From a virus: 38,067 nucleotides of DNA. The notes beneath the pieces were generated by a model, which made no database searches, had not been told where the DNA came from, and was given only the letters and a program-made list of their open reading frames with translations. Positions within the stretch are counted from its first letter, which is position 1. Each line of letters opens with the position of its first letter. The position numbers and the translations under genes are program-made. Of this stretch, positions 3,665 through 28,874 are shown piece after piece. The stretch covers positions 1 to 38,067 of the IMG/VR virus record IMGVR_UViG_3300042508_000157; one strand, given 5' to 3'.

Positions 3665-3952
3665 TCACTCCTCGTGGTCATCGGGCTGTCGGAACCCCTC
3701 GGCATCGAGCACGCCCGACAGGGTCTCGGAAAACTCCGCGACGGCTTCCTCGCTCAGGTCTGGCCACCGGGCGTGTATCAACTCATGAAGCAGGGTATCT
3801 AAGAGGTCAACGCCGTGGAGCGTGTCGGCGATGCGGATCGTCTTGGCGTTGTAGTCGCACTGGCCGTCGTCGTTGCGGAGTCGCTTGCGGAGGATCTTCC
3901 ACCGTTGCTCGCCCACGTAGACGGTCCGCTGCTTGCGTTGGCGGCGAGGCAT
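3665..3952 (-). CDS. Minimal HExxH metallopeptidase-like protein
   Basis: A 95-residue protein with the zinc-protease signature HELIH (about residues 56-60) in LLDTLLHELIHARWPDLSEE, followed by a Glu about 7-9 residues later that could be a third ligand (SEEAVAEFSE). The N-terminus is basic (PRRQRKQR). This is far shorter than SprT-type proteins, so it is a minimal gluzincin-like domain as found in small phage peptidase-like genes. The ATG at 3952 sits 4 bases after the stop of the glycosyltransferase. The likely role is cleavage of a protein in the infected cell or in the virion, but activity and target are inference. Confidence 0.75.
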   Translation of the reverse strand: MPRRQRKQRTVYVGEQRWKILRKRLRNDDGQCDYNAKTIRIADTLHGVDLLDTLLHELIHARWPDLSEEAVAEFSETLSGVLDAEGFRQPDDHEE

Positions 3953-3956
3953 CGCG

Positions 3957-4859
3957 CTACCCTGCGAGCCGGCGGTCGTATTCGGCCTTGGCGTCCGGTG
4001 CGAACCGGCGATTGATCAGCGACTTGATGATCGCACCGCCAGCAATCTCGGCCTTCGCTTGGCATGCGTGCTGGAAGACGAGGTTGCCGTCGCTGTCGTG
4101 CTGGCAGATCGCTGGGTGACGCCAGACGGGATTCCGGGGCGGCAGGTGGTAGCGGTGACCGCAGAGGTGCCACGCGAGGAGGAACGTGTCCTTGTCGCCG
4201 TAGACGAACTGGTAAACCTCGTCGCTCCAGTCGTTCAGGCAGAGGGCCACGTCGAGAGCCTGGAAGTGCCGGCGGCGATCCACGAGGATCTGCCCCGACT
4301 CGAACGGCCTCGCCCCGGGCACGGGCTCCAGGCCCACGGCCCGCCACGCACCCTCGGGCACCCACTGGCCACGCTCGCGGCTCGGCGGCAGGTCGGGCCA
4401 AAACATCGCGCCGGCCCGCTCGTAGGCCTTGTCGTGGAAGAGGTAGGTCGGGTCGGTCGCCGGCACGTTGTCGGCGTCGATCAGCATGGCCTCGGCAAAG
4501 CACGTGTGAGCGAGGGCGAACGACTTGAGCCACCACCCCGAGTGCTGGGCGGATCGGCCCGCCACGGCCCGCGTAGCGATCCCACGCTCGCGACAGAACT
4601 GGCCCACATCCACCAGCCGCACGCCGGGCTCGGGGGCGAACACGCCACGGATCGCGGCGGGCATCTCGTGCGAGAAGTGCCAGAGCTCGACGGGCAGCCG
4701 GCAGCCGAGGCCACGGAGGGCGGTGATCAGGTGGAATGCAAGCCGGCTGTAGAGATCGCCGCCGGCCACGATGACCACGCCGCGGAGCTCGCGGATCGGC
4801 GGCACCAGGAGCGGCGGGTGGTCGAGCCGGTCGGCGAGGGCCAGGCGAAAGGGGGACAT
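3957..4859 (-). CDS. GT71-like (MNN1-type) glycosyltransferase
   Basis: A 300-residue protein resembling the mannosyltransferase GT71/MNN1 family: a Rossmann-like start (GVVIVAGGDLYSRLA), VELWHFSHEMP (57-67), the WWLKSFALAHTCF helix, then the DxD-like metal and sugar-nucleotide motif LIDADNVP (126-133; D128, D130). A later FESGQILVDRRRHFQAL and YGDKDTFLLAW match the acceptor-side motifs of the family. There is no signal peptide or membrane anchor, unlike eukaryotic members, so it should act in the cytoplasm. It is transcribed from its own promoter-like element and lies after the tail-tip genes. It probably glycosylates a virion protein or modifies a host surface glycan; the sugar donor cannot be read from the sequence. 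Confidence 0.8.
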   Translation of the reverse strand: MSPFRLALADRLDHPPLLVPPIRELRGVVIVAGGDLYSRLAFHLITALRGLGCRLPVELWHFSHEMPAAIRGVFAPEPGVRLVDVGQFCRERGIATRAVAGRSAQHSGWWLKSFALAHTCFAEAMLIDADNVPATDPTYLFHDKAYERAGAMFWPDLPPSRERGQWVPEGAWRAVGLEPVPGARPFESGQILVDRRRHFQALDVALCLNDWSDEVYQFVYGDKDTFLLAWHLCGHRYHLPPRNPVWRHPAICQHDSDGNLVFQHACQAKAEIAGGAIIKSLINRRFAPDAKAEYDRRLAG

Positions 4860-4900
4860 GCCGCTAGGGTACGGGGCCTGTCGAGCCGGCCGCAGGGGGT
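4860..4900 (-). promoter_or_regulatory. ACCCCCTGCGG-type phage promoter before the GT71-like gene
   Basis: On the minus strand ACCCCCTGCGG (4900-4890) is followed by 18 bases and TACCCT (4871-4866), then AGCGGC and the ATG at 4859. The start has no Shine-Dalgarno sequence. The expected transcription start is at or next to the A of the ATG, so the message may be leaderless. Three other near-identical arrangements exist in the window (14576-14619, 18422-18464, 28832-28874). Confidence 0.6.
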
Positions 4901-13533: not shown

Positions 13534-13899
13534 TCACGTAGGGGCCAAGCCGTCGCGACATAGCCGTGCTTCCACGGTCCAGGTCACCACTCCATCGACG
13601 GGTTGGTTTTCGGAAAAGCTTGTAATCACGGCAGGCATCGTGAGCCCCGCGCCGCCGGTGCTGAGGACTAACAACTGCTGCCCGTTAATGAGCGCCTCGC
13701 GGAAGCCGCCAGCGTCATCCGAATCGTTGAATTCGCACGAGAGCACGGTGTCGTAACCAGTGGAGTAGACGGTTGCCATCCGGCTCCCGAACTCCTCTAC
13801 GTCGATCGTGCGGGCGGTACGCTGGACGCTCACCTGCCGGGCGGAAAAGACCTGCCCGCCGATATCGACGGCGCAATCTTTGCCCAGCAGGATCGCCAC
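13534..13899 (-). CDS. Tail-tube-like protein, third tandem paralogue
   Basis: A 121-residue protein starting at GTG with MAILLGKDCAVDIGGQVFSA and ending VDGVVTWTVEARLCRDG. The opening M(A/S)(I/V)xLGKD and the closing DG(V/A/I)xT(W/F)T(V/I)xA are shared with the two preceding genes, showing that all three belong to one family. The beta-rich pattern (VSVQRTARTIDVEEFG, TVLSCEFNDS, AVITSFSENQPVDGVV) fits the double beta-sandwich or barrel of siphovirus tail tubes. It stands directly upstream of the chaperone pair. A GGAGG-like sequence precedes the GTG. Confidence 0.8.
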   Translation of the reverse strand: MAILLGKDCAVDIGGQVFSARQVSVQRTARTIDVEEFGSRMATVYSTGYDTVLSCEFNDSDDAGGFREALINGQQLLVLSTGGAGLTMPAVITSFSENQPVDGVVTWTVEARLCRDGLAPT

Positions 13900-13903
13900 G
13901 GGA

Positions 13904-14221
13904 TCAAGCCTCCCGTGCGGTGATCGTGAACGTCACGGCTCCGTCGATGCCGATGTTCTCGTTGACGCTCATGACCGTAAAACCAGACGACGCGTTTGTG
14001 GTCAACTGCGTGACCACGCCCGTGGCGTCGTGGCACTCGATCTCCCACATCTTCGTCTTGAAACCGGCCTTGTAGGCCCGATAACCAGCTTCACCTGCCG
14101 CGCCGCCTTCGTTAGCGCGGTTCGTCACGTCGATGACTTCGCACTCTTCCGTATAGGTCGCCGAGATGATGTCAGCGCCGAACGGAGGGGCCGAGCCGTC
14201 CTTACCAAGAACAATGGACAT
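13904..14221 (-). CDS. Tail-tube-like protein, second tandem paralogue
   Basis: A 105-residue protein, MSIVLGKDGSAPPFGADIIS..., with TYTEECEVIDVTNRA and the closing NIGIDGAVTFTITAREA. The same signature as the neighbours before and after is clear at both ends. It has a Shine-Dalgarno CAGGAG. The first strand contains an insertion (APPFGADI) relative to the others, so the copies have diverged well beyond a recent duplication. Any one of the three could be the major tube protein; the others could form the tube initiator or terminator or decorate it. Confidence 0.8.
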   Translation of the reverse strand: MSIVLGKDGSAPPFGADIISATYTEECEVIDVTNRANEGGAAGEAGYRAYKAGFKTKMWEIECHDATGVVTQLTTNASSGFTVMSVNENIGIDGAVTFTITAREA

Positions 14222-14236
14222 GGAGATGCTCCTGAG

Positions 14237-14551
14237 TTATGCGGCGTGGCGGCTGGCGGATACGGTCCACGTCTGAATCCCATCGACCGGATCGGCTTGC
14301 GCGACGCTGGTCACGACGTACGCGACGTTTCCGGTACGCGTTCCACCGAGCGTGAACGTGTTTCCGGCCTCGACGCCTGGGTCGTCCACGCATTCGACCT
14401 CGACGGTCTGCTCGATAAGCGCCTTTCGGAACTTGCGGGCCGTGTCTCCGAACTTGGTCACGTCGATCTCGCTCGCCGAGTTGTTGACCGTGACACTGCG
14501 GGCGTTTGCGATGCCCGTGATCGTCACGTCCTTGCCGAGGGTCACTGCCAT
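14237..14551 (-). CDS. Tail-tube-like protein, first tandem paralogue
   Basis: A 104-residue protein MAVTLGKDVTITGIANARSV..., with SEIDVTKFGDTARKFRKALI and the end DPVDGIQTWTVSASRHA. The shared ends identify it as the first of three tandem paralogues. It is the first gene downstream of a promoter-like element (14576-14619) and has a short leader with GGAGC before the ATG, so it may be strongly expressed, as needed for a major tube protein. It is shorter than the usual lambda tube protein (about 250), closer to the minimal tube domain. Confidence 0.8.
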   Translation of the reverse strand: MAVTLGKDVTITGIANARSVTVNNSASEIDVTKFGDTARKFRKALIEQTVEVECVDDPGVEAGNTFTLGGTRTGNVAYVVTSVAQADPVDGIQTWTVSASRHAA

Positions 14552-14575: not shown

Positions 14576-14619
14576 TGCCGCTCACGATAGGGCTGGCGGG
14601 CAGGGTCGCCGCAGGGGGT
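14576..14619 (-). promoter_or_regulatory. ACCCCCTGCGG-type phage promoter before the tail genes
   Basis: On the minus strand ACCCCCTGCGG (14619-14609), 19 bases, TATCGT (14589-14584), then 7 bases and an A at 14576 as the likely start point. Here a leader of about 25 bases with a GGAGC Shine-Dalgarno site leads to the ATG at 14551, unlike the leaderless-looking copies. It is the best -10 match of the family. It sits after the gp10-like gene and should drive the tail module. Confidence 0.6.
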
Positions 14620-14628
14620 GTGGATGCG

Positions 14629-15333
14629 TCACGGGCCGGTGATTTTGCCCCGCCACTTCTCAGCGAGCTTGGCCCGCTTGGCGTCGAGGCCCTTCGCCAT
14701 GAACCGCCCCGGCTTGATCTTGCCCGTGTCGCGAAGGAGCACCTTGTGCACCTTTCGGGTATGGGCCGGATCGACCCAGATACCGACGTACGCGGCCCCG
14801 CGGCGGTATCGCCCCCGCTTGTCGCGGGCCTGCGTTCGCCCGCCGCCAGCGTTGCCGAGCATCCCGGCAGGCGGCTTGAACTTCTGCAGGAGCTTCGACT
14901 TCCCCGGGTAGCGACCGATCAGTTTCAGGACGCGAGGGGCCGAGCCGCCGAACTCCTGAAGCTTGTTGAGCCAAGTCGCCTTGTCCATCGGCCCAATCAC
15001 GACCGACTCTTTCCGGTCGTCCCGTCGATACTCGACCATCGTCCGCAGGAAACCGGTAGTCGTGGCCCCGCGGCCCCGAGGGTTCTTCCAGCTGGTGACC
15101 TTGCCGGCCGTTGGGGGCCGGAACTCCATCGAGAGCACGGGCCGCCCGTCTTTCTCGCCGACCTTCTGCCACTGCGGCTTTTTCTTTACCGTCCGGTGCG
15201 AGAACTGTTTCTTGGCCGACTGCCGCACCATCGAGCCCGCGGCGTCGAGGGCCTTGTTGTTGCCCGCCTTGTAGCGGTTGCGGACGTGCCGCACGTTCAT
15301 CTTGACCCGCGTCTTCACAGTGACGCCGATCAT
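14629..15333 (-). CDS. HK97 gp10-like neck or minor tail protein
   Basis: A 234-residue, strongly basic protein (many Lys and Arg) starting MIGVTVKTRVKMNVRHVRNR. It has the usual plan of HK97 gp10-like proteins: N-terminal helix (KALDAAGSMVRQSAKKQF), a middle strand region with FLRTMVEYRRDDRKESVVIGP, then a C-terminal helix. It is somewhat longer than lambda gpZ (192 residues). The ATG overlaps the stop of the tail terminator-like gene as TGATG. In siphoviruses such proteins join the tail to the head or complete the neck. The family call rests on motif style and place. Confidence 0.7.
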   Translation of the reverse strand: MIGVTVKTRVKMNVRHVRNRYKAGNNKALDAAGSMVRQSAKKQFSHRTVKKKPQWQKVGEKDGRPVLSMEFRPPTAGKVTSWKNPRGRGATTTGFLRTMVEYRRDDRKESVVIGPMDKATWLNKLQEFGGSAPRVLKLIGRYPGKSKLLQKFKPPAGMLGNAGGGRTQARDKRGRYRRGAAYVGIWVDPAHTRKVHKVLLRDTGKIKPGRFMAKGLDAKRAKLAEKWRGKITGP

Positions 15334-15770
15334 CAGCGGAACGTCCTGTACGTGACCGAGATCACGGCCCGCCAGACGTTGCGTTCCTGCAGGCCCTCGT
15401 CTGGGTTGATGTCGAGGCTGATCGACATTGGGCTCGTCGCTGGAAATTGCAGTTCGCCCCAGTCGTTCGCGAGCAGCACATCGACGATTTCTTCCGCAAA
15501 CTCCAGCATTTGGTTTGCGGCAGACTCGGTCGGGGTGTGCCGGCCAACAAACACATTTATTTCGTAGTCGAATTGGTGCTTTGAGCGATCGACCCGAGTG
15601 ATTTCGTTTTGACTCCCTGGCGAGACCACGATCACCGGGTTGGCCATGTCGTCGATATCAACGCTTGGCCAGTTAGATCGCGATACAGACGGGGCCGCAT
15701 CCACAGTGCTCCACGAATAGCCGGTCAAGGCTTCCGCCAAGGCGTCGGCGAGGTCTTTGAGCAGGCTCAC
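15333..15770 (-). CDS. Tail terminator (gpU-like) or tail completion protein
   Basis: A 145-residue protein starting at GTG, with a GGAGG Shine-Dalgarno, overlapping the glycosyltransferase stop as GTGA. It reads LLKDLADALAEALTGYSW at the start, a middle strand pair (FDYEINVFVGRHTPTESAAN) and RNVWRAVISVTYRTFR at the end. The alternation of an N-terminal helix, beta strands and a long helix (NQMLEFAEEIVDVLLAN) is that of tail terminator or completion proteins, which cap the growing tube. It is the first structural gene after the sugar-modifying block. Confidence 0.7.
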   Translation of the reverse strand: MSLLKDLADALAEALTGYSWSTVDAAPSVSRSNWPSVDIDDMANPVIVVSPGSQNEITRVDRSKHQFDYEINVFVGRHTPTESAANQMLEFAEEIVDVLLANDWGELQFPATSPMSISLDINPDEGLQERNVWRAVISVTYRTFR

Positions 15771-16816
15771 GCGGCGGCCTCCAGGATTCGCTCCATTGCC
15801 TCGACGTTGCCCGTCAGGCGTGGGTCTCCCGGGCATCGTGCCACGGCTTCCCTCGCCAACTGGAGGGCCTCGGGCCGCAGGCCGAGATTCCAGGCCGCCA
15901 CGCTGGCGAGGTCGTAGGCCTTTGTCTTGGCCTCGGGATCGGTCGCATGCGTGCCCTGGCCGTCGGCGTTGATCGCTTGGGCGGCGAAGGCGTGACACTC
16001 CCGCCATTCCTGCCGCTTGTAGTGGCAGAACGCCAGCTGCTGCCAGGCGTCGGGCTCGCCGGTCGCCTCCTTCGCCGCGTGGTGTAAATGCTTCTCGTCG
16101 CCCGTCAGGCGAAACAGGGCGCGGTAGGCGTAGGCCCGCTCGGTCCACATGCCGCCTTTCATTCCGAGGTAGTGGACGAACGTCGCCGCAGCCTGCGGGT
16201 CGCCGGCCCACTCCATTTCGCGGGCGAGATACCACCAGGCACGGGCGTCGTGCGGGGCCTCTCGCACGGCCACCTGGAGCAGGGCGAGATCGGTCTTGTG
16301 CCGCTTGCCGGCGTCGCGGTGATGGTGGATTTCCAGCCCCTCGACAAACTTCTGCCGTTTCTCGCCGTTCCAGGCGACGAGCCCTTCATGCGTCGCTGCC
16401 GTCCAGCGGAATCCGTGACGGGCGTGGATGCGGTCAGAGTAGAAGACGAGCCCCGGCGCGCCGTCGGCCTTCCACGACCACACATAGCGATAGCGGAGGT
16501 TGTTGTGGGCGTCGTCCCACTCCCGCTCGATCACCTCACGCCACCCGGGCTGCAGCCGCTCGTCGAGGTCAAGCCGGATGCAGACATCGACATCGGGCGG
16601 CAGATGGTGGAGCGACAGGTTGTGGGCATCGTCCCACCGCCAGGGCACGACGTAGCCGTTACAGACCGTAACGCCCTGTTGCATCAGGATCCCCGGCGTG
16701 CCGTCGGTGGATCCTGTGTCGGTGACCACCCGCACGTCGGCCTCCCGGCACGAGTCGGCCCACGCCTCTACGTGCTTTCGTTCGTTCTTTGCCAGAGCGT
16801 AGACGCCGATCTTCAT
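15767..16816 (-). CDS. GT2-family glycosyltransferase with C-terminal TPR-like region
   Basis: A 349-residue protein; the ATG at 16816 overlaps the methyltransferase stop (ATGA). The start MKIGVYALAKNERKHVEAWA followed by VVTDTGSTDGTPGIL (about 29-43) is the classic GT2 nucleotide-binding region, and CIRLDLDERLQPGW (about 83-96) contains the DxD/DxDE motif. Residues ~190-345 are helical repeats (ARAWWYLAREMEWAGDPQAA, DAWQQLAFCHYKRQEWRECH, AYDLASVAAWNLGLRPEALQ) typical of TPRs. There is no membrane segment. It probably transfers a sugar to a protein or glycan in the cytoplasm. It is co-translated with a methyltransferase and a GH130-like protein, pointing to a joint modification pathway. Confidence 0.85.
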   Translation of the reverse strand: MKIGVYALAKNERKHVEAWADSCREADVRVVTDTGSTDGTPGILMQQGVTVCNGYVVPWRWDDAHNLSLHHLPPDVDVCIRLDLDERLQPGWREVIEREWDDAHNNLRYRYVWSWKADGAPGLVFYSDRIHARHGFRWTAATHEGLVAWNGEKRQKFVEGLEIHHHRDAGKRHKTDLALLQVAVREAPHDARAWWYLAREMEWAGDPQAAATFVHYLGMKGGMWTERAYAYRALFRLTGDEKHLHHAAKEATGEPDAWQQLAFCHYKRQEWRECHAFAAQAINADGQGTHATDPEAKTKAYDLASVAAWNLGLRPEALQLAREAVARCPGDPRLTGNVEAMERILEAAA

Positions 16817-17361
16817 GTGATGACCGCTGCCTCCCGAAGCCCGTCGTTCATAAAATCCACGCGCCGCCGCTTCTCGCGGGCAAACTCCTCGACCGCCTTC
16901 CGCACCTCGGGGTTGCAGCAGTCGTCGGCCAGGATCACCGGCACCTGGGCCACGAGGTGCAGGTCGTGCAGCGCCCCGGCGTAGGAGTGGTCGCCGTCTA
17001 CGTGGGCAAAGTCGGCCGGCGGCAGGCTGCGAACCGCCCGGCTGTTGACCACCACAAGCGAGGCGTCGATCGCCCATCGCTCCACCACGCTCTGCCAGTG
17101 GGCGAGGCAGTCGAGGCTGTCGTCATCGGCCGCCCCGTCGATGCACAGGTAGCGGGCGTCGGGGCAGGCCGTGGCGAACGACACAAGCGAGTAGCCGCAC
17201 CGCGTGCCGATCTCAATTACCCGCTTCGGCCGCACGTCGGCGGCCACGCTGGCCTTGCGGTAGTAGTGCCGGGCGACCCGCTCGTCGAGTTGGAACCAGT
17301 CGTGTGGCCGCCACGCATCGGCCAGCGTCTTGGAAATCTTCACCTCAAACGGTGACGGCAT
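16813..17361 (-). CDS. Class I SAM-dependent methyltransferase
   Basis: A 182-residue protein; the ATG at 17361 overlaps the preceding gene by 17 bases. It has the SAM-binding glycine loop VIEIGTRCGYSLVSF (about 48-62), the acidic strand end YLCIDGAADD, and the DFAHVDGDHSYAGALHDL motif (about 118-135) typical of the Methyltransf_24-like group that often modifies sugars or lipids. No target-recognition domain is present. Its place between a GH130-like protein and a GT2 enzyme suggests O-methylation of a sugar chain. The substrate is not readable. Confidence 0.85.
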   Translation of the reverse strand: MPSPFEVKISKTLADAWRPHDWFQLDERVARHYYRKASVAADVRPKRVIEIGTRCGYSLVSFATACPDARYLCIDGAADDDSLDCLAHWQSVVERWAIDASLVVVNSRAVRSLPPADFAHVDGDHSYAGALHDLHLVAQVPVILADDCCNPEVRKAVEEFAREKRRRVDFMNDGLREAAVIT

Positions 17362-18421
17362 AGAGCATCCTCCGCAGGTCGTCGGCTTCGATCGCCGTGA
17401 TCCACGCCTCGGCGTCACGTACGCCGTAGCTGGCCACCAGCCGGTGGCCGTTGACCGCCAGCCCGGCGGCAAACTCGATCGCCTGCCTTTCGCGAAACGC
17501 GAACGCGGGCGAGACCCGCAGCAGTTCAAGGTCGGCGTCCAGCCAGATAAACCGGTGTTCGTAGACGCGGCGGTTGCCGAGGCCCGCCACCTCGTGCACC
17601 AGGCCGAGCCAGCCGTCGTCGAACTGGAGCAGTTGCGAGCCGCCACGGAACCGCTTGGCGAGGGCCGGCGACGGGCGACGCTGCGAAATCTGCCACGCTC
17701 CCGGGATCGAGCCGTTGGGGTCCACCGTGACGACGTGGCCGTTGTGGTTCGCCGCGTAGAGCCAGCCCTCGCGGCCCACAAACGGCATCCAGTTCTTTTC
17801 GTGGTCCTGGACGTGGATCCCGTCGAGCACCCGCAGCCCCGAGAACGTGGCCGCCCGCAGATCGAGGTCCGCGGTCGCGATCCGGCAGCGGCCGTCGAAG
17901 GGGCTCACGTCGCGGACGGTGGCCGAGACGCCTATACCCGTTTGGGTATATCGCAGCCGGCAGTCCTCCAGGCCGGTGACTGCGAAGCCGGTCCGTGGGT
18001 AGTCGGGGCCAGTGACGACGCGTGCCGAGGCGACGGTGAGGTCGGGCCGCAGCCTGACGAGCACGTTCTCGGTACGGATGCAGCCGCCGTCGGCCGCAGG
18101 CATCTCGTAGCGGCCGTCGATGATCTGGTAATTCGAGGATCGCACCAGGGCGACTAGGTCGCCGCCGTAGCTCGCGAGCGTGGGGTTGAACAGGCTCCAG
18201 CCCTCATGGGCCGGCTCTACGTCGATCCGCTGGTGGTGGACGCTGGCGAGCTCGTCGAGCGTGGGCGTGTACCACGTCCGGTTGGTCCGCACCATGTGCT
18301 CGATCTCTTCCGTGAGGTCGGGCCGGGCGAGGATCCGCTCGCACGCCCGGCGTCCGGCGTCGAGCTCGCCGACGTAGTAGCTGTGGACGCAGAGGGCGAG
18401 GTCGTGCTCATGGCCGGTCAT
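17345..18421 (-). CDS. GH130-like five-bladed propeller protein
   Basis: A 358-residue protein; I chose the ATG at 18421. A short TPR-like helix pair (residues 8-40) is followed by a propeller with glycan-enzyme motifs: SLFNPTL (76-82), GLEDCRLRY (150-158, compare the E-D of GH130 enzymes), DHEKNWMPF (206-214), RFRGGSQLLQF (257-267) and VHEVAG with a later YEHRF. GH130 members phosphorolyse or hydrolyse beta-mannosides; proteins of this shape also occur next to glycosyltransferases. Catalysis is not proven here. No Shine-Dalgarno precedes the ATG; a promoter-like -10 (ACACTT) ends 7 bases upstream, so the message may be leaderless. A 17-base palindromic repeat lies in the gene. Confidence 0.75.
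   Translation of the reverse strand: MTGHEHDLALCVHSYYVGELDAGRRACERILARPDLTEEIEHMVRTNRTWYTPTLDELASVHHQRIDVEPAHEGWSLFNPTLASYGGDLVALVRSSNYQIIDGRYEMPAADGGCIRTENVLVRLRPDLTVASARVVTGPDYPRTGFAVTGLEDCRLRYTQTGIGVSATVRDVSPFDGRCRIATADLDLRAATFSGLRVLDGIHVQDHEKNWMPFVGREGWLYAANHNGHVVTVDPNGSIPGAWQISQRRPSPALAKRFRGGSQLLQFDDGWLGLVHEVAGLGNRRVYEHRFIWLDADLELLRVSPAFAFRERQAIEFAAGLAVNGHRLVASYGVRDAEAWITAIEADDLRRMLYAVTV
17933..17950. repeat. Palindrome TATACCCGTTTGGGTATA inside the GH130-like gene
   Basis: Two 7-base arms (TATACCC / GGGTATA) with a 4-base GTTT centre. The inner 17 bases occur again at 18498-18514, about 560 bases upstream of this copy in gene order. As coding sequence it gives R-Y-T-Q-T-G-I-G. Matching copies before and within a gene suggest an operator pair, but a chance repeat cannot be ruled out. 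Confidence 0.5.
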
Positions 18422-18464
18422 GGCGGCCAAGTGTGCCGACCGCGGCGGGCGAGCCGCAGGGGGT
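18422..18464 (-). promoter_or_regulatory. ACCCCCTGCGG-type phage promoter before the sugar block
   Basis: On the minus strand ACCCCCTGCGG (18464-18454), 19 bases, ACACTT (18434-18429), then 7 bases and the ATG at 18421. The box is identical to those at 4890-4900, 14609-14619 and 28864-28874. It would drive the GH130-like, methyltransferase and GT2 genes, which overlap one another. Confidence 0.6.
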
Positions 18465-18497: not shown

Positions 18498-18514
18498 ATA
18501 CCCGTTTGGGTATA
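18498..18514. repeat. Second copy of the palindrome, upstream of the sugar block
   Basis: ATACCCGTTTGGGTATA, identical over 17 bases to 17933-17950 and lying about 34 bases upstream of the promoter box at 18454-18464. Arms of 6 bases around GTTT. It lies between the stop of a small upstream gene and the promoter, where an operator or activator site would be expected. Confidence 0.5.
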
Positions 18515-19787: not shown

Positions 19788-20026
19788 TTTCCATTTTCCC
19801 GAAATGCGAAAGCTCGGTTGGTTTCGTTGCAAAGCCACTGCCCCCGTCCCATCGTCGCCACGCCGTTGTCGGGCCGCGTTACGCCTGGGGGCTGCCCACC
19901 GTCAGCCCCATAGACGCCGTAGGGCGCGGCGTCGGCTGGCGGCGGGGTGTGTTCGGTGTTCGCGAATCGCGACCGGCTTTTCCTACGGTGTGTAGCGTCA
20001 TTCAGTTCCCGCAGTAGCCCTCGCAC
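19784..20026 (-). CDS. Possible small protein coupled to the BPSL0761-like gene
   Basis: An 80-residue frame from a GTG at 20026 with AGGACGA upstream, overlapping the end of the PP-loop gene. Its C-terminal half (QPPGVTRPDNGVATMGRGQW, then NRAFAFRENGK) looks protein-like, and its stop overlaps the next ATG as ATGA. The N-terminal half is low in structure, and a rival 39-residue frame starts at 20001. No family recognised. Confidence 0.4.
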   Translation of the reverse strand: MRGLLRELNDATHRRKSRSRFANTEHTPPPADAAPYGVYGADGGQPPGVTRPDNGVATMGRGQWLCNETNRAFAFRENGK

Positions 20027-20877
20027 TCGTCCTGAAACCCGCGTAGGTGCTTGAACATATTCATCTGCCCGCTCTTTTCGTCGGCTGGCCGCAGGTCAAC
20101 CTCGTCTAGCGGCTGGCAGGATTTGTGCAGGTAGCGGTGGGCATCCAAGCCTGTACCAGTGCGGCACACCTTGTCGATGTGTACGGCCCGATCCCAGCCG
20201 TTGGGATCGTCGGCCTTGAGACGCCGCCACTCCTCGTCTGACTTGAACGGGCAGAACACGCAGGCCGACCGTGGCACTTCGTATGGCATCCGCTCCCGCA
20301 GGTAGGACTTGCAATCGCCGCGATCCCACTGCATTTCCCAAAGCGGGAAATGCACCTTCCAGTTCGACGGCTTTGCCATGAACCGCTCTTTTACGCGGAT
20401 GACCCGCTTCGGCTCGTCAAACGACAGCCCCATGTACTGGTGGACGATTACTTCCTTCGGCAGCGGCCTGCCGAACTGCCCGCCGCAGTGCTCGCGGATC
20501 AGTCGCTCAATCGGCTTGACCTTGAAGTCGGCTGTGCATTGCCGCTGTATGATTCCCTTCTGTCCTGTCTGCGGATGGATGGTGAACGCTGGGATTGAAA
20601 TGTAATGGCTGCCGTCAGTGCATTTGTTTCCTCTTGCGTCCGATCCTTGATCCAGCGCATCGCCCAGCCGCCCCGCTGTCGTCCTCACAATCGGCGGCCC
20701 GCCCTGCTTCTCCAGCCACTCAAGGTGCCGGTAGACCTCGTCCGGCTCCTCCTGTGTGTCGGCGAAGATGGCCGCATCGAATCGCGGCACTTCCGGCTCG
20801 TCGCCGTCGATGCTCAAGAGGTAGAGGGCCGTCGATTGGACGCCAGCGCCGAGATTGAGGAAGTGGTGTTCAGGCAT
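20002..20877 (-). CDS. PP-loop ATPase of the PAPS reductase-like family
   Basis: A 291-residue protein. The PP-loop is LNLGAGVQSTAL (about 7-18), where the family usually has SGGxxS; next come FDAAIFADTQEEPDEVYRHL and a conserved RQCT (112-115). The C-terminal half has C206-x2-C209 (SACVFCPFK) and ECEGYCG at the end (C285, C289); with C114 these could hold a metal or Fe-S cluster. Family members activate substrates with ATP by making adenylates or move sulfur. Phage members of this group are common but their reaction is mostly unassigned. It overlaps the upstream small gene by 8 bases and belongs to the accessory block, so it may be a host-metabolism or nucleic-acid-modifying enzyme. Confidence 0.8.
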   Translation of the reverse strand: MPEHHFLNLGAGVQSTALYLLSIDGDEPEVPRFDAAIFADTQEEPDEVYRHLEWLEKQGGPPIVRTTAGRLGDALDQGSDARGNKCTDGSHYISIPAFTIHPQTGQKGIIQRQCTADFKVKPIERLIREHCGGQFGRPLPKEVIVHQYMGLSFDEPKRVIRVKERFMAKPSNWKVHFPLWEMQWDRGDCKSYLRERMPYEVPRSACVFCPFKSDEEWRRLKADDPNGWDRAVHIDKVCRTGTGLDAHRYLHKSCQPLDEVDLRPADEKSGQMNMFKHLRGFQDECEGYCGN

Positions 20878-22546: not shown

Positions 22547-23140
22547 TCAGACGACCCGCCACACGGACGAGGTCGCGTCGTACACGATCAGGGCCGCCCC
22601 GCCGTTCGCACTCATGACGAACGTCCCGGCCCACGGCACGGCGAATCGGGCGTTTTCGTTTGGCCCGGTCGCGTGCTGCAGGTTGATCGGTGCCGTCGCC
22701 CCGACGTTGACCAAGAGCTTGGCGTCGCCGTCAACTCCGGTGATCCCGAGACCCCAGAGGTTGACGCCCGTCGAGCCGGTGACGGCCAGGCGGTAGATGT
22801 CGCCCGAGCCGGGGTTGTAACCAGTGACGGTCGTGTTGGCCGTCAAGGCCGTCGGGGTGACCACGACGTTGGTGTAGCTCGAACCCGTGGGGCCGGTCAC
22901 GCTTGGGCCGGTGGCTCCGTTGGCCCCCGCCGGGCCGGTTACAGTCGAGGCGGCACCGGCTTGGCCGGTCGGGCCAGTCGAGCCAGCGGCACCTGCCGAG
23001 CCGGCAGTGCCAGTCGGACCCGTGGGTCCAGCGATACCAGAGCCGACGAGCTCCCAGGCCTGGCCATTCCACGAGTAGGTGCGACCGCCCGTAGTGGTCT
23101 GCTGGTTGAGCGACGGGTTGGAGGGAAAGGTGAGAGGCAT
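22547..23140 (-). CDS. Collagen-like fibre protein 3
   Basis: A 197-residue protein. An N-terminal cap with an aromatic strand (GRTYSWNGQAWELVGSG) resembles the trimerisation domain of phage fibres, then Gly-X-Y stretches (GPTGPTGTAG and GPTGQAG, about 40-90), and a beta-rich C-terminal domain with VTPTALTANTTVTGYNP and WGLGITGVDGDAKLLVNVGA, likely a knob or spike. Gly-Pro-Thr triplets form triple helices in phages. It follows two related genes. Confidence 0.75.
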   Translation of the reverse strand: MPLTFPSNPSLNQQTTTGGRTYSWNGQAWELVGSGIAGPTGPTGTAGSAGAAGSTGPTGQAGAASTVTGPAGANGATGPSVTGPTGSSYTNVVVTPTALTANTTVTGYNPGSGDIYRLAVTGSTGVNLWGLGITGVDGDAKLLVNVGATAPINLQHATGPNENARFAVPWAGTFVMSANGGAALIVYDATSSVWRVV

Positions 23141-23156: not shown

Positions 23157-24029
23157 TTAGCCGCCGGCAAGCGTAATTGAATTCCAGTTATTACCATCCC
23201 ACACAACGATGACGGCAGGGCTAAATACATTAAGCGTCGCGATACCGGTCGCTGTGTTTGTTTTGACGAAAAGCGAATATGTGGCCGTGGCGTCAGTGTT
23301 TTTTATGACGTAGTTCGCTCCGGTTGCTGACCCTGTTGGTAGCACAACGTCTTGGTTTGCGCCCGACGGCTGGATGAACTGGTATTTGGCCGAGCTCGTG
23401 TCGAGCGTCAGCGTGCCCGTGATCGAGGCGACGTTGATCCCGCCTTGTGCTCCAGGACCAGTCGGCCCGGTTGGCCCGCCAGACGGACCAGTTGGCCCCG
23501 TGATCGTCGAGGCTGTGCCCGTAGGCCCCGTCACCGATGCGCCCGTAGGCCCGGTCACCGTTGACGCTGCGCCCGTAGGCCCCGTCACTGATGCGCCCGT
23601 AGGCCCCGTGATCGTCGAGGCTGCACCCGTTGGGCCGCGTTCGCCCTGGACGCCGATCTCGACCCAGTTCGTCGCGTAGCGGACGAAATACTTGCCGGTT
23701 GAGTCGTCGAGCCAGATGGCCCCCGCAGCGGCGATGCCAGCCCCGGTCGGTGCCGTCGGGCCGGTGGCCGCAAACGCGTAGCCGCCGGTAGGGCCGGTCA
23801 CCTGCGGACCCGTAGGCCCCGTGATCGTCGAGGCCGCGCCCGTCGCGCCCGTAGGCCCGTTGCTCAGGTCGATGCCCGTAGGCCACCCGCTAACCGCGTC
23901 CTTCGGCCCGTAGAGCAACTTCGCAGCACGGTCGATGAACAAGTCGCCCGCATTGCCGACGCCGCCAGTGGGCGCAGTCGTGCCGGCGAGCACGGGCGAG
24001 GCTCCAGACGGTAGCGAGAAAAACGGCAT
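23157..24029 (-). CDS. Collagen-like fibre protein 2
   Basis: A 290-residue protein. The N-terminus (MPFFSLPSGASPVLAGTTAP) is followed by a first short domain (LFIDRAAKLLYGPKDAVSGW), a Gly-Pro-Thr region from about residue 60, the module AIWLDDSTGKYFVRYATNWV (also seen in the preceding gene), a second set of GPTG repeats (about 130-190) interrupted by AASTITGPTG, and a C-terminal beta domain (TLTLDTSSAKYQFIQPSGAN). The repeats are nearly identical at DNA level, so their number may vary between relatives. Fibre on the capsid or tail; the receptor or partner is unknown. Confidence 0.8.
   Translation of the reverse strand: MPFFSLPSGASPVLAGTTAPTGGVGNAGDLFIDRAAKLLYGPKDAVSGWPTGIDLSNGPTGATGAASTITGPTGPQVTGPTGGYAFAATGPTAPTGAGIAAAGAIWLDDSTGKYFVRYATNWVEIGVQGERGPTGAASTITGPTGASVTGPTGAASTVTGPTGASVTGPTGTASTITGPTGPSGGPTGPTGPGAQGGINVASITGTLTLDTSSAKYQFIQPSGANQDVVLPTGSATGANYVIKNTDATATYSLFVKTNTATGIATLNVFSPAVIVVWDGNNWNSITLAGG
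23500..23640. repeat. Tandem DNA repeats coding for Gly-Pro-Thr triplets
   Basis: Several near-identical units built on GCCCGTAGGCCCCGTCA follow one another in the collagen-like gene. They translate on the minus strand to GPTGA blocks such as AASTITGPTG and ASVTGPTG. Such repeats slip easily, so unit number may differ between related phages; this is not a CRISPR array. Confidence 0.7.
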
Positions 24030-28831: not shown

Positions 28832-28874
28832 AGAGGCGACGGTACGGGGCCAGAGGGGCTACACCGCAGGGGGT
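28832..28874 (-). promoter_or_regulatory. ACCCCCTGCGG-type phage promoter before the head genes
   Basis: On the minus strand ACCCCCTGCGG (28874-28864), 19 bases, TACCGT (28844-28839), 7 bases and the ATG at 28831. The box is identical to three others in the window and lies just after the acetyltransferase stop. It could drive the portal, capsid and connector genes. Confidence 0.6.

Follow-up and report, generated by a model that had tools for sequence, protein, structure and literature searches.

A conserved gene block in a tailed phage as a candidate module for O-glycosylation of collagen-like fibres

Why would a tailed phage carry three overlapping genes for sugar-modifying enzymes among the genes of its virion? 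The question is raised by the virus record IMGVR_UViG_3300042508_000157, of which positions 1 to 38,067 were analysed; this whole 38,067-base stretch is called the window here. The window belongs to a tailed phage with genes mostly on the minus strand, and encodes DnaN, terminase, portal, a fused protease-capsid, collagen-like fibres, the three-gene block, tail genes, and a tape measure. The block comprises a propeller protein with the GH130 fold, an S-adenosylmethionine (SAM) methyltransferase, and a GT2 glycosyltransferase with a TPR domain (GT2-TPR). The original prediction had proposed that it might decorate the virion, change host surface sugars, or protect against host defence. The first option was by far the best supported, with the GT2-TPR family lying beside Thr-rich collagen genes and matching the architecture of the bacterial enzyme SgtA, and the other two gained no support. 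We consider it probable that the block is a late-expressed module that O-glycosylates the collagen-like fibres of the phage. The genes concerned are as follows.

15333..15770, minus strand: presumed tail terminator, conserved directly downstream of the block, its function assigned by position only
15767..16816, minus strand: GT2 glycosyltransferase with C-terminal TPR domain, 349 amino acids, proposed initiating protein O-glycosyltransferase (phrog_13126, fold matches)
16813..17361, minus strand: SAM methyltransferase (Methyltransf_24, PF13578), occupying the block's variable slot
17345..18421, minus strand: GH130-fold five-bladed propeller protein, 358 amino acids, helical N-terminus of ~55 amino acids, conserved outer gene (Foldseek/VIA, structure model)
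22547..23140, minus strand: collagen-like tail-fibre-type protein, proposed acceptor (tail fibre PHROGs; PF01391 22.9 bits, below the cutoff of 27.2)
23157..24029, minus strand: collagen-like fibre protein with 12 GPT triplets and 16% Thr, proposed main acceptor (sequence, counts)
3957..4859, minus strand: GT71-like mannosyltransferase, a second glycosyltransferase with the same motif upstream as the block (PF11051 Mannosyl_trans3, conserved DADN)

The GT2-TPR enzyme and its collagen-like neighbours

The predicted GT2 enzyme with a TPR-like tail was recovered by profile searches. It matched phrog_13126, 'beta-1,4-glycosyltransferase', at E 1.4e-71 (PHROG), and its C-terminus matched TPR_19 with 31.1 bits (Pfam cutoff 25). 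The best fold matches of the structure model (predicted local distance difference test, pLDDT, 87.6) were SunS (Z 20.9) and ThuS (Z 20.2), both peptide glycosyltransferases, and a weak profile match (E 0.0064) was obtained to GmaR, a flagellin N-acetylglucosamine (GlcNAc) transferase composed of GT2 and TPR (PMC9638930). The motifs DTGSxD and LDxDE were invariant or nearly so in 9 diverse relatives. Structural models lacking an active site in both glycosyltransferases had been named as a point that would speak against a glycan pathway; DxD-type motifs were invariant in the relatives of both GT2-TPR and the GT71-like enzyme. In architecture, GT2-TPR matches Clostridioides difficile SgtA (358 amino acids, with GT-A at 1-260 and TPR at 262-358), an enzyme that attaches beta-O-GlcNAc to Thr residues within the GPT collagen repeats of BclA3; the sgtA gene lies directly upstream of bclA3 (PMC7157674).

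The neighbourhoods of GT2-TPR relatives were examined in 80 loci from IMG/VR, fetched with a diverse family alignment. These loci contained no detected homologues of the window phage's structural genes and are not fully independent of each other. A collagen-like open reading frame (ORF) was found within ~6 kb in 42 of the 80 relatives, and in 26 of 44 clusters at 75% identity. All 55 collagen ORFs near these relatives were on the same strand as the glycosyltransferase gene, 51 upstream and 4 downstream, and in many relatives the collagen gene was directly upstream. When loci with full flanks were considered, a collagen ORF occurred upstream in 27/49 and downstream in 3/59, the downstream side being an internal control. 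The control loci with collagen were 3/35 for PAPS-reductase and 15/80 for the sister tail terminator; the linkage was significant against the former (Fisher p 3.8e-6), a control drawn partly from the window's own lineage. Moreover, ~61% of the Y positions in the collagen ORFs near GT2-TPR relatives were Thr or Ser. In the window, the two collagen-like ORFs (24029-22547) belong to the same gene cluster as GT2-TPR, ~6 kb upstream and non-adjacent.

The pair of GT2-TPR and collagen recurred in phage DSL-LC01, the gut scaffold MT838491, a Peribacillus plasmid, and the planctomycete genomes G280 and G506; a plasmid search with the gut homologue gave a single match. In the two planctomycete genomes (loci L231 and L253), GT2-TPR, a Ser/Thr protein kinase and a GPT collagen-like protein form an array, and the kinase of G506 carries leucine-rich repeats. 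This array has the look of a cellular system for modifying collagen.

Several observations weigh against the fibres as acceptors or against the pathway as a whole. The collagen tracts in the window are short, amounting to ~19 strict triplets, of which 8 contain Thr/Ser. Collagen was missing within 6 kb of GT2-TPR at about half of the loci, partly owing to contig ends, and no collagen was annotated near the GT2-TPR relative of PaBG and HRDY3. Capsid-to-tail-terminator regions with the block had more Thr/Ser collagen triplets than those without (9 vs 15 regions, p 0.002), which is essentially a two-clade contrast and weak evidence, and the Thr/Ser fraction of the collagens did not differ between block-positive and block-negative regions (p 0.93). 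Thr-rich collagens also occur in some sister phages that lack the block. A profile-profile comparison of the GH130-fold protein with GH130 reached a probability of 1.8%, and its sequence score fails. Furthermore, we infer the sugar donor, the linkage and the acceptor of the glycosylation.

In the main rival explanation, the module glycosylates the virion, but on a protein of the major tail, the tail terminator or the capsid, comparable to what is seen in mycobacteriophages Che8, Corndog, and Myrna. Glycosylation of capsid and tail tube in mycobacteriophages is described (PMC12363180), and in PaBG and HRDY3 the GT2-TPR relative lies near head or tail genes. In the window, the block overlaps the tail genes and has its upstream motif in common with the portal and tail genes. 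However, the family-wide linkage points to collagen genes, and Thr in collagen is the target of SgtA, the enzyme of matching architecture. We regard another virion protein as an unlikely acceptor, and the collagen-like fibres as the probable one.

The GH130-fold protein

The outer gene of the block had been described as coding for a GH130-like propeller. The fold was upheld, and the assignment by sequence was not, since PF04041 scored 13.5 bits, below the cutoff of 26. GH130 assignment by sequence alone was therefore rejected, and the protein is referred to as having the GH130 fold rather than as a member of GH130. A profile search of solved structures returned repeat-protein noise and a partial 5b0p match only. 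The structural search suggested by the original prediction was run with a model of pLDDT 90, which matched GH130 in Foldseek at E 4.5e-11, the top match being the mannoside synthase 9erg. Compared with GH130 phosphorylases, the VIA Z was 22.6 over 278 residues at a root-mean-square deviation of 3.4. GH130 phosphorylases and synthases ranked first, followed by the Leishmania MPT enzymes, among them the GDP-mannose-dependent transferase MPT-2 (GT108-type; Z 17.8), and then by GH43. In BFVD, uncharacterised proteins of a giant virus (Pithovirus LCPAC) and of phages were nearer in fold than solved structures. The pair E152-D153 was invariant in 31 relatives. When a global alignment was forced, it fell on the EDPR motif, although the alignment had a low probability; the reference catalytic Asp of GH130 is D142 of BT3780, after E141 (PMC4599007).

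Is this protein a phosphorylase or hydrolase that degrades host mannan, functionally unrelated to the other two genes? The known GH130 enzymes mostly degrade beta-mannosides (PMC4599007), and the fold match is to phosphorylases. Nevertheless, the gene was inseparable from GT2-TPR in 38/38 contigs and shares an operon with biosynthetic enzymes, its top structural match is a synthase, and the MPT-2 transferase matches too. A degradative role is thus doubtful; this explanation concerns one of the three genes, so that its probability overlaps in part with those of the other rivals. In cyanophage DSL-LC02 (L373, 3264-9708), a relative annotated as beta-mannosyltransferase stands beside a collagen-like gene and two genes for FkbM methyltransferases, with tail fibre genes on either side, a parallel to the block in a cyanophage; in phage DSL-LC01 another relative adjoins a methyltransferase. 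These neighbourhoods lend support to a putative biosynthetic role.

Conservation and expression of the block

Three ORFs, overlapping as had been predicted, were present on the minus strand, and the predicted coordinates and identities were right. The GH130-like gene starts at ATG 18421, with a TTG further upstream at 18430, and is overlapped by the methyltransferase gene by 17 bp; GT2-TPR overlaps the methyltransferase gene by 4 bp (ATGA), and its stop overlaps the presumed tail-terminator gene by 4 bp (GTGA). The last gene of the block is probably translationally coupled to the tail genes. The prediction had described an insertion between fibre/accessory genes and the tail terminator; this needs correcting in that the block does not stand apart as an insert, its last gene running into the tail genes. 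The methyltransferase assignment held as well (PF13578, 41 bits, cutoff 26.3). All three genes were under purifying selection, with dN/dS values of 0.10 (GH130-like), 0.07 (methyltransferase), and 0.19 (GT2-TPR) against the close relative L003.

The proposed comparison with close relatives was carried out. GT2-TPR lay between the GH130-like gene and the tail terminator in 38/38 contigs holding those two genes. The slot between the outer genes of the block contained Methyltransf_24 alone in 19 contigs, Methyltransf_24 with an FkbM methyltransferase in 6, and, in the other 13, unassigned proteins resembling glycosyltransferases, either by themselves or accompanied by a second GT2 or another methyltransferase. 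These proteins, provisionally labelled 'HtrL1/HtrL2', had zero matches in Pfam or PHROGs, and it may be that both labels pick up a single gene. The whole block was found in 0/80 tail-terminator loci of the sister clade, and six long sister-clade records gave no GH130-like match. A search for a cellular source of the GH130-like gene in 294 Planctomycetota genomes yielded no match at 1e-8, which proves little.

The promoter-like motif ACCCCCTGCGG precedes the block, portal, major tail, and GT71-like genes. The copies of ACCCCCTGCGGC in the window are listed below.

28863..28874, minus strand: copy with 1 mismatch, upstream of the portal gene
18453..18464, minus strand: late-promoter-like motif ACCCCCTGCGGC, 32 bp ahead of the block's first ATG
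14608..14619, minus strand: copy upstream of the major-tail-like genes
4889..4900, minus strand: copy upstream of the GT71-like gene

With at most 1 mismatch, these were the only 4 copies in the window (at 28874, 18464, 14619, and 4900), all on the minus strand and all intergenic, whereas shuffles had a mean of 0.53 copies and 0/100 reached 4. The promoter-like element ahead of both the block and the GT71-like gene was thereby confirmed. In the fetched loci, an 11-base core of the motif occurred in 69 copies on the coding strand versus 1 on the opposite strand, and the following gene was major tail in 25, portal in 22, GH130-like in 10, and GT71-like in 10; these counts are not independent, some loci being overlapping or near-identical. 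A scan for sigma-70 promoters found nothing, and ACCCCCTGCGGC is not sigma-70-like. The motif may be a late promoter or another late control element. A 17-bp palindromic sequence, TATACCCAAACGGGTAT, has perfect copies at 17934-17950 (inside the GH130-like gene) and 18498-18514 (upstream), with 0 copies expected by chance and 1-3 copies in close relatives. It was rejected as a shared promoter, there being no copy near the GT71-like gene.

The GT71-like ORF (4859-3957) matched PF11051 Mannosyl_trans3 with 123 bits (cutoff 22), in line with the predicted identity. Expression of a glycan pathway together with virion genes is supported by these results. Within 3665-4859, the GT71-like gene is followed by an SprT-like gene, as it is in relatives (L125-L135, L223, L224).

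The location of the block also bears on the idea that its enzymes remodel host surface glycans and so change receptors or block superinfection. A review statement in PMC12619734 holds that phage glycosyltransferases can change the host serotype, and the middle genes of the block vary like antigen clusters. However, the block is part of the virion operon and has the shared motif ahead of it, the fold neighbours of GT2-TPR are peptide or protein glycosyltransferases, and its relatives adjoin collagen genes, so that we hold such remodelling to be improbable. More improbable still is that the glycosyltransferases act on modified bases in the phage's DNA and so protect it from restriction. Phage glycosyltransferases are known in this role, and it has been proposed in freshwater actinophages as well (PMC10202952), but no hydroxymethylase or base-hypermodification gene was recognised among the annotated ORFs, and the TPR architecture and collagen linkage favour protein acceptors.

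The capsid protein of the window phage has relatives in Planctomycetota metagenome-assembled genomes, and a prophage-like region of Zavarzinella formosa holds a capsid relative with homologues of terminase, portal, and tail genes in order. Therefore, the host is probably a planctomycete. Elsewhere in the window, three diverged major-tail-like paralogues (104, 105, and 121 amino acids) stand in tandem at 13534-14551, and a PAPS-reductase-like gene (phrog_424) at 20002-20877, between fibres and block, may contribute sulfate chemistry or may have nothing to do with the pathway.

Proposed pathway and known systems

Under the fibre-glycosylation reading, GT2-TPR would use its TPR domain late in infection to bind collagen-like fibre protein that has just been made, and would move a first sugar from a nucleotide sugar onto Thr/Ser of GPT-type triplets, the reaction for which SgtA and BclA3 are the model; some bacteria coat the collagen-like hairs of their spores with sugar in much this way. 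Next, a beta-linked mannose-type sugar would be added by the GH130-fold protein, which would then be a synthase or transferase and no hydrolase, and the methyltransferase would O-methylate the glycan as a cap. Further extension of this glycan may be the task of the separate GT71-like enzyme, and since the middle enzymes are swapped among relatives, the glycan should change with them. Sugars on the fibres might stabilise them, or might shield them from proteases, from grazers or from being recognised by the host.

Environmental phages commonly encode collagen-like fibres and also 'orphan' glycosyltransferases, but annotation usually treats the two apart, and DNA is the guessed target of some of these enzymes. 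With the directional, family-wide link and the architectural match to a bacterial enzyme of known reaction, the two can be tested together as a single system. On this reading, glycoproteins would be frequent among phage fibres, with effects on host range, stability, and recognition, and the present label of phrog_13126, 'beta-1,4-glycosyltransferase', should give way to that of a candidate protein O-glycosyltransferase. More tentatively, it is possible that tailed phages commonly carry SgtA-like collagen O-glycosylation, and that this Planctomycetota-phage lineage has made it a modular factory, in which a fixed GT2-TPR and GH130-fold synthase with exchangeable tailoring enzymes give collagen fibres a phage-specific glycan coat.

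SunS and ThuS, the nearest solved folds to GT2-TPR, are peptide glycosyltransferases; these glycocin S-glycosyltransferases act on Cys of bacteriocins and share ~14% identity with it. No glycocin gene was noted in the window, in which no search aimed at such genes was made. To our knowledge, virion glycosylation in mycobacteriophages has neither a GH130-fold partner nor a collagen link. In Che8, Corndog, and Myrna, phage-encoded glycosyltransferases decorate the virion as proposed here, but the acceptors are capsid and tail tube. Mimivirus L230 also represents a viral glycosyltransferase acting on viral collagen-like proteins, but it places glucose on hydroxylysine, is fused to a hydroxylase, and belongs to a eukaryotic giant virus (PMC4691112). 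GmaR resembles GT2-TPR in its order of GT2 and TPR and in its protein acceptor, and differs in its 637 amino acids, antirepressor domain, and flagellin target. The GH130/GT108 mannoside phosphorylases and mannosyltransferases share the five-bladed propeller fold, and perhaps the invariant Glu-Asp pair, with the window protein, which, unlike them, is under the Pfam GH130 cutoff, has 12-17% identity, and forms a phage-specific clade with a helical N-terminus. SgtA-BclA3 of C. difficile, likened here by published architecture rather than by sequence comparison, operates among spore genes, whereas the window enzyme is encoded among phage virion genes, its partners being a GH130-fold protein and a methyltransferase in place of spore genes. 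Nevertheless, the two systems have in common a GT2-TPR enzyme of matching size and domain order, a GPT collagen gene in the wider neighbourhood (in the window ~6 kb away), and Thr as the known or proposed acceptor.

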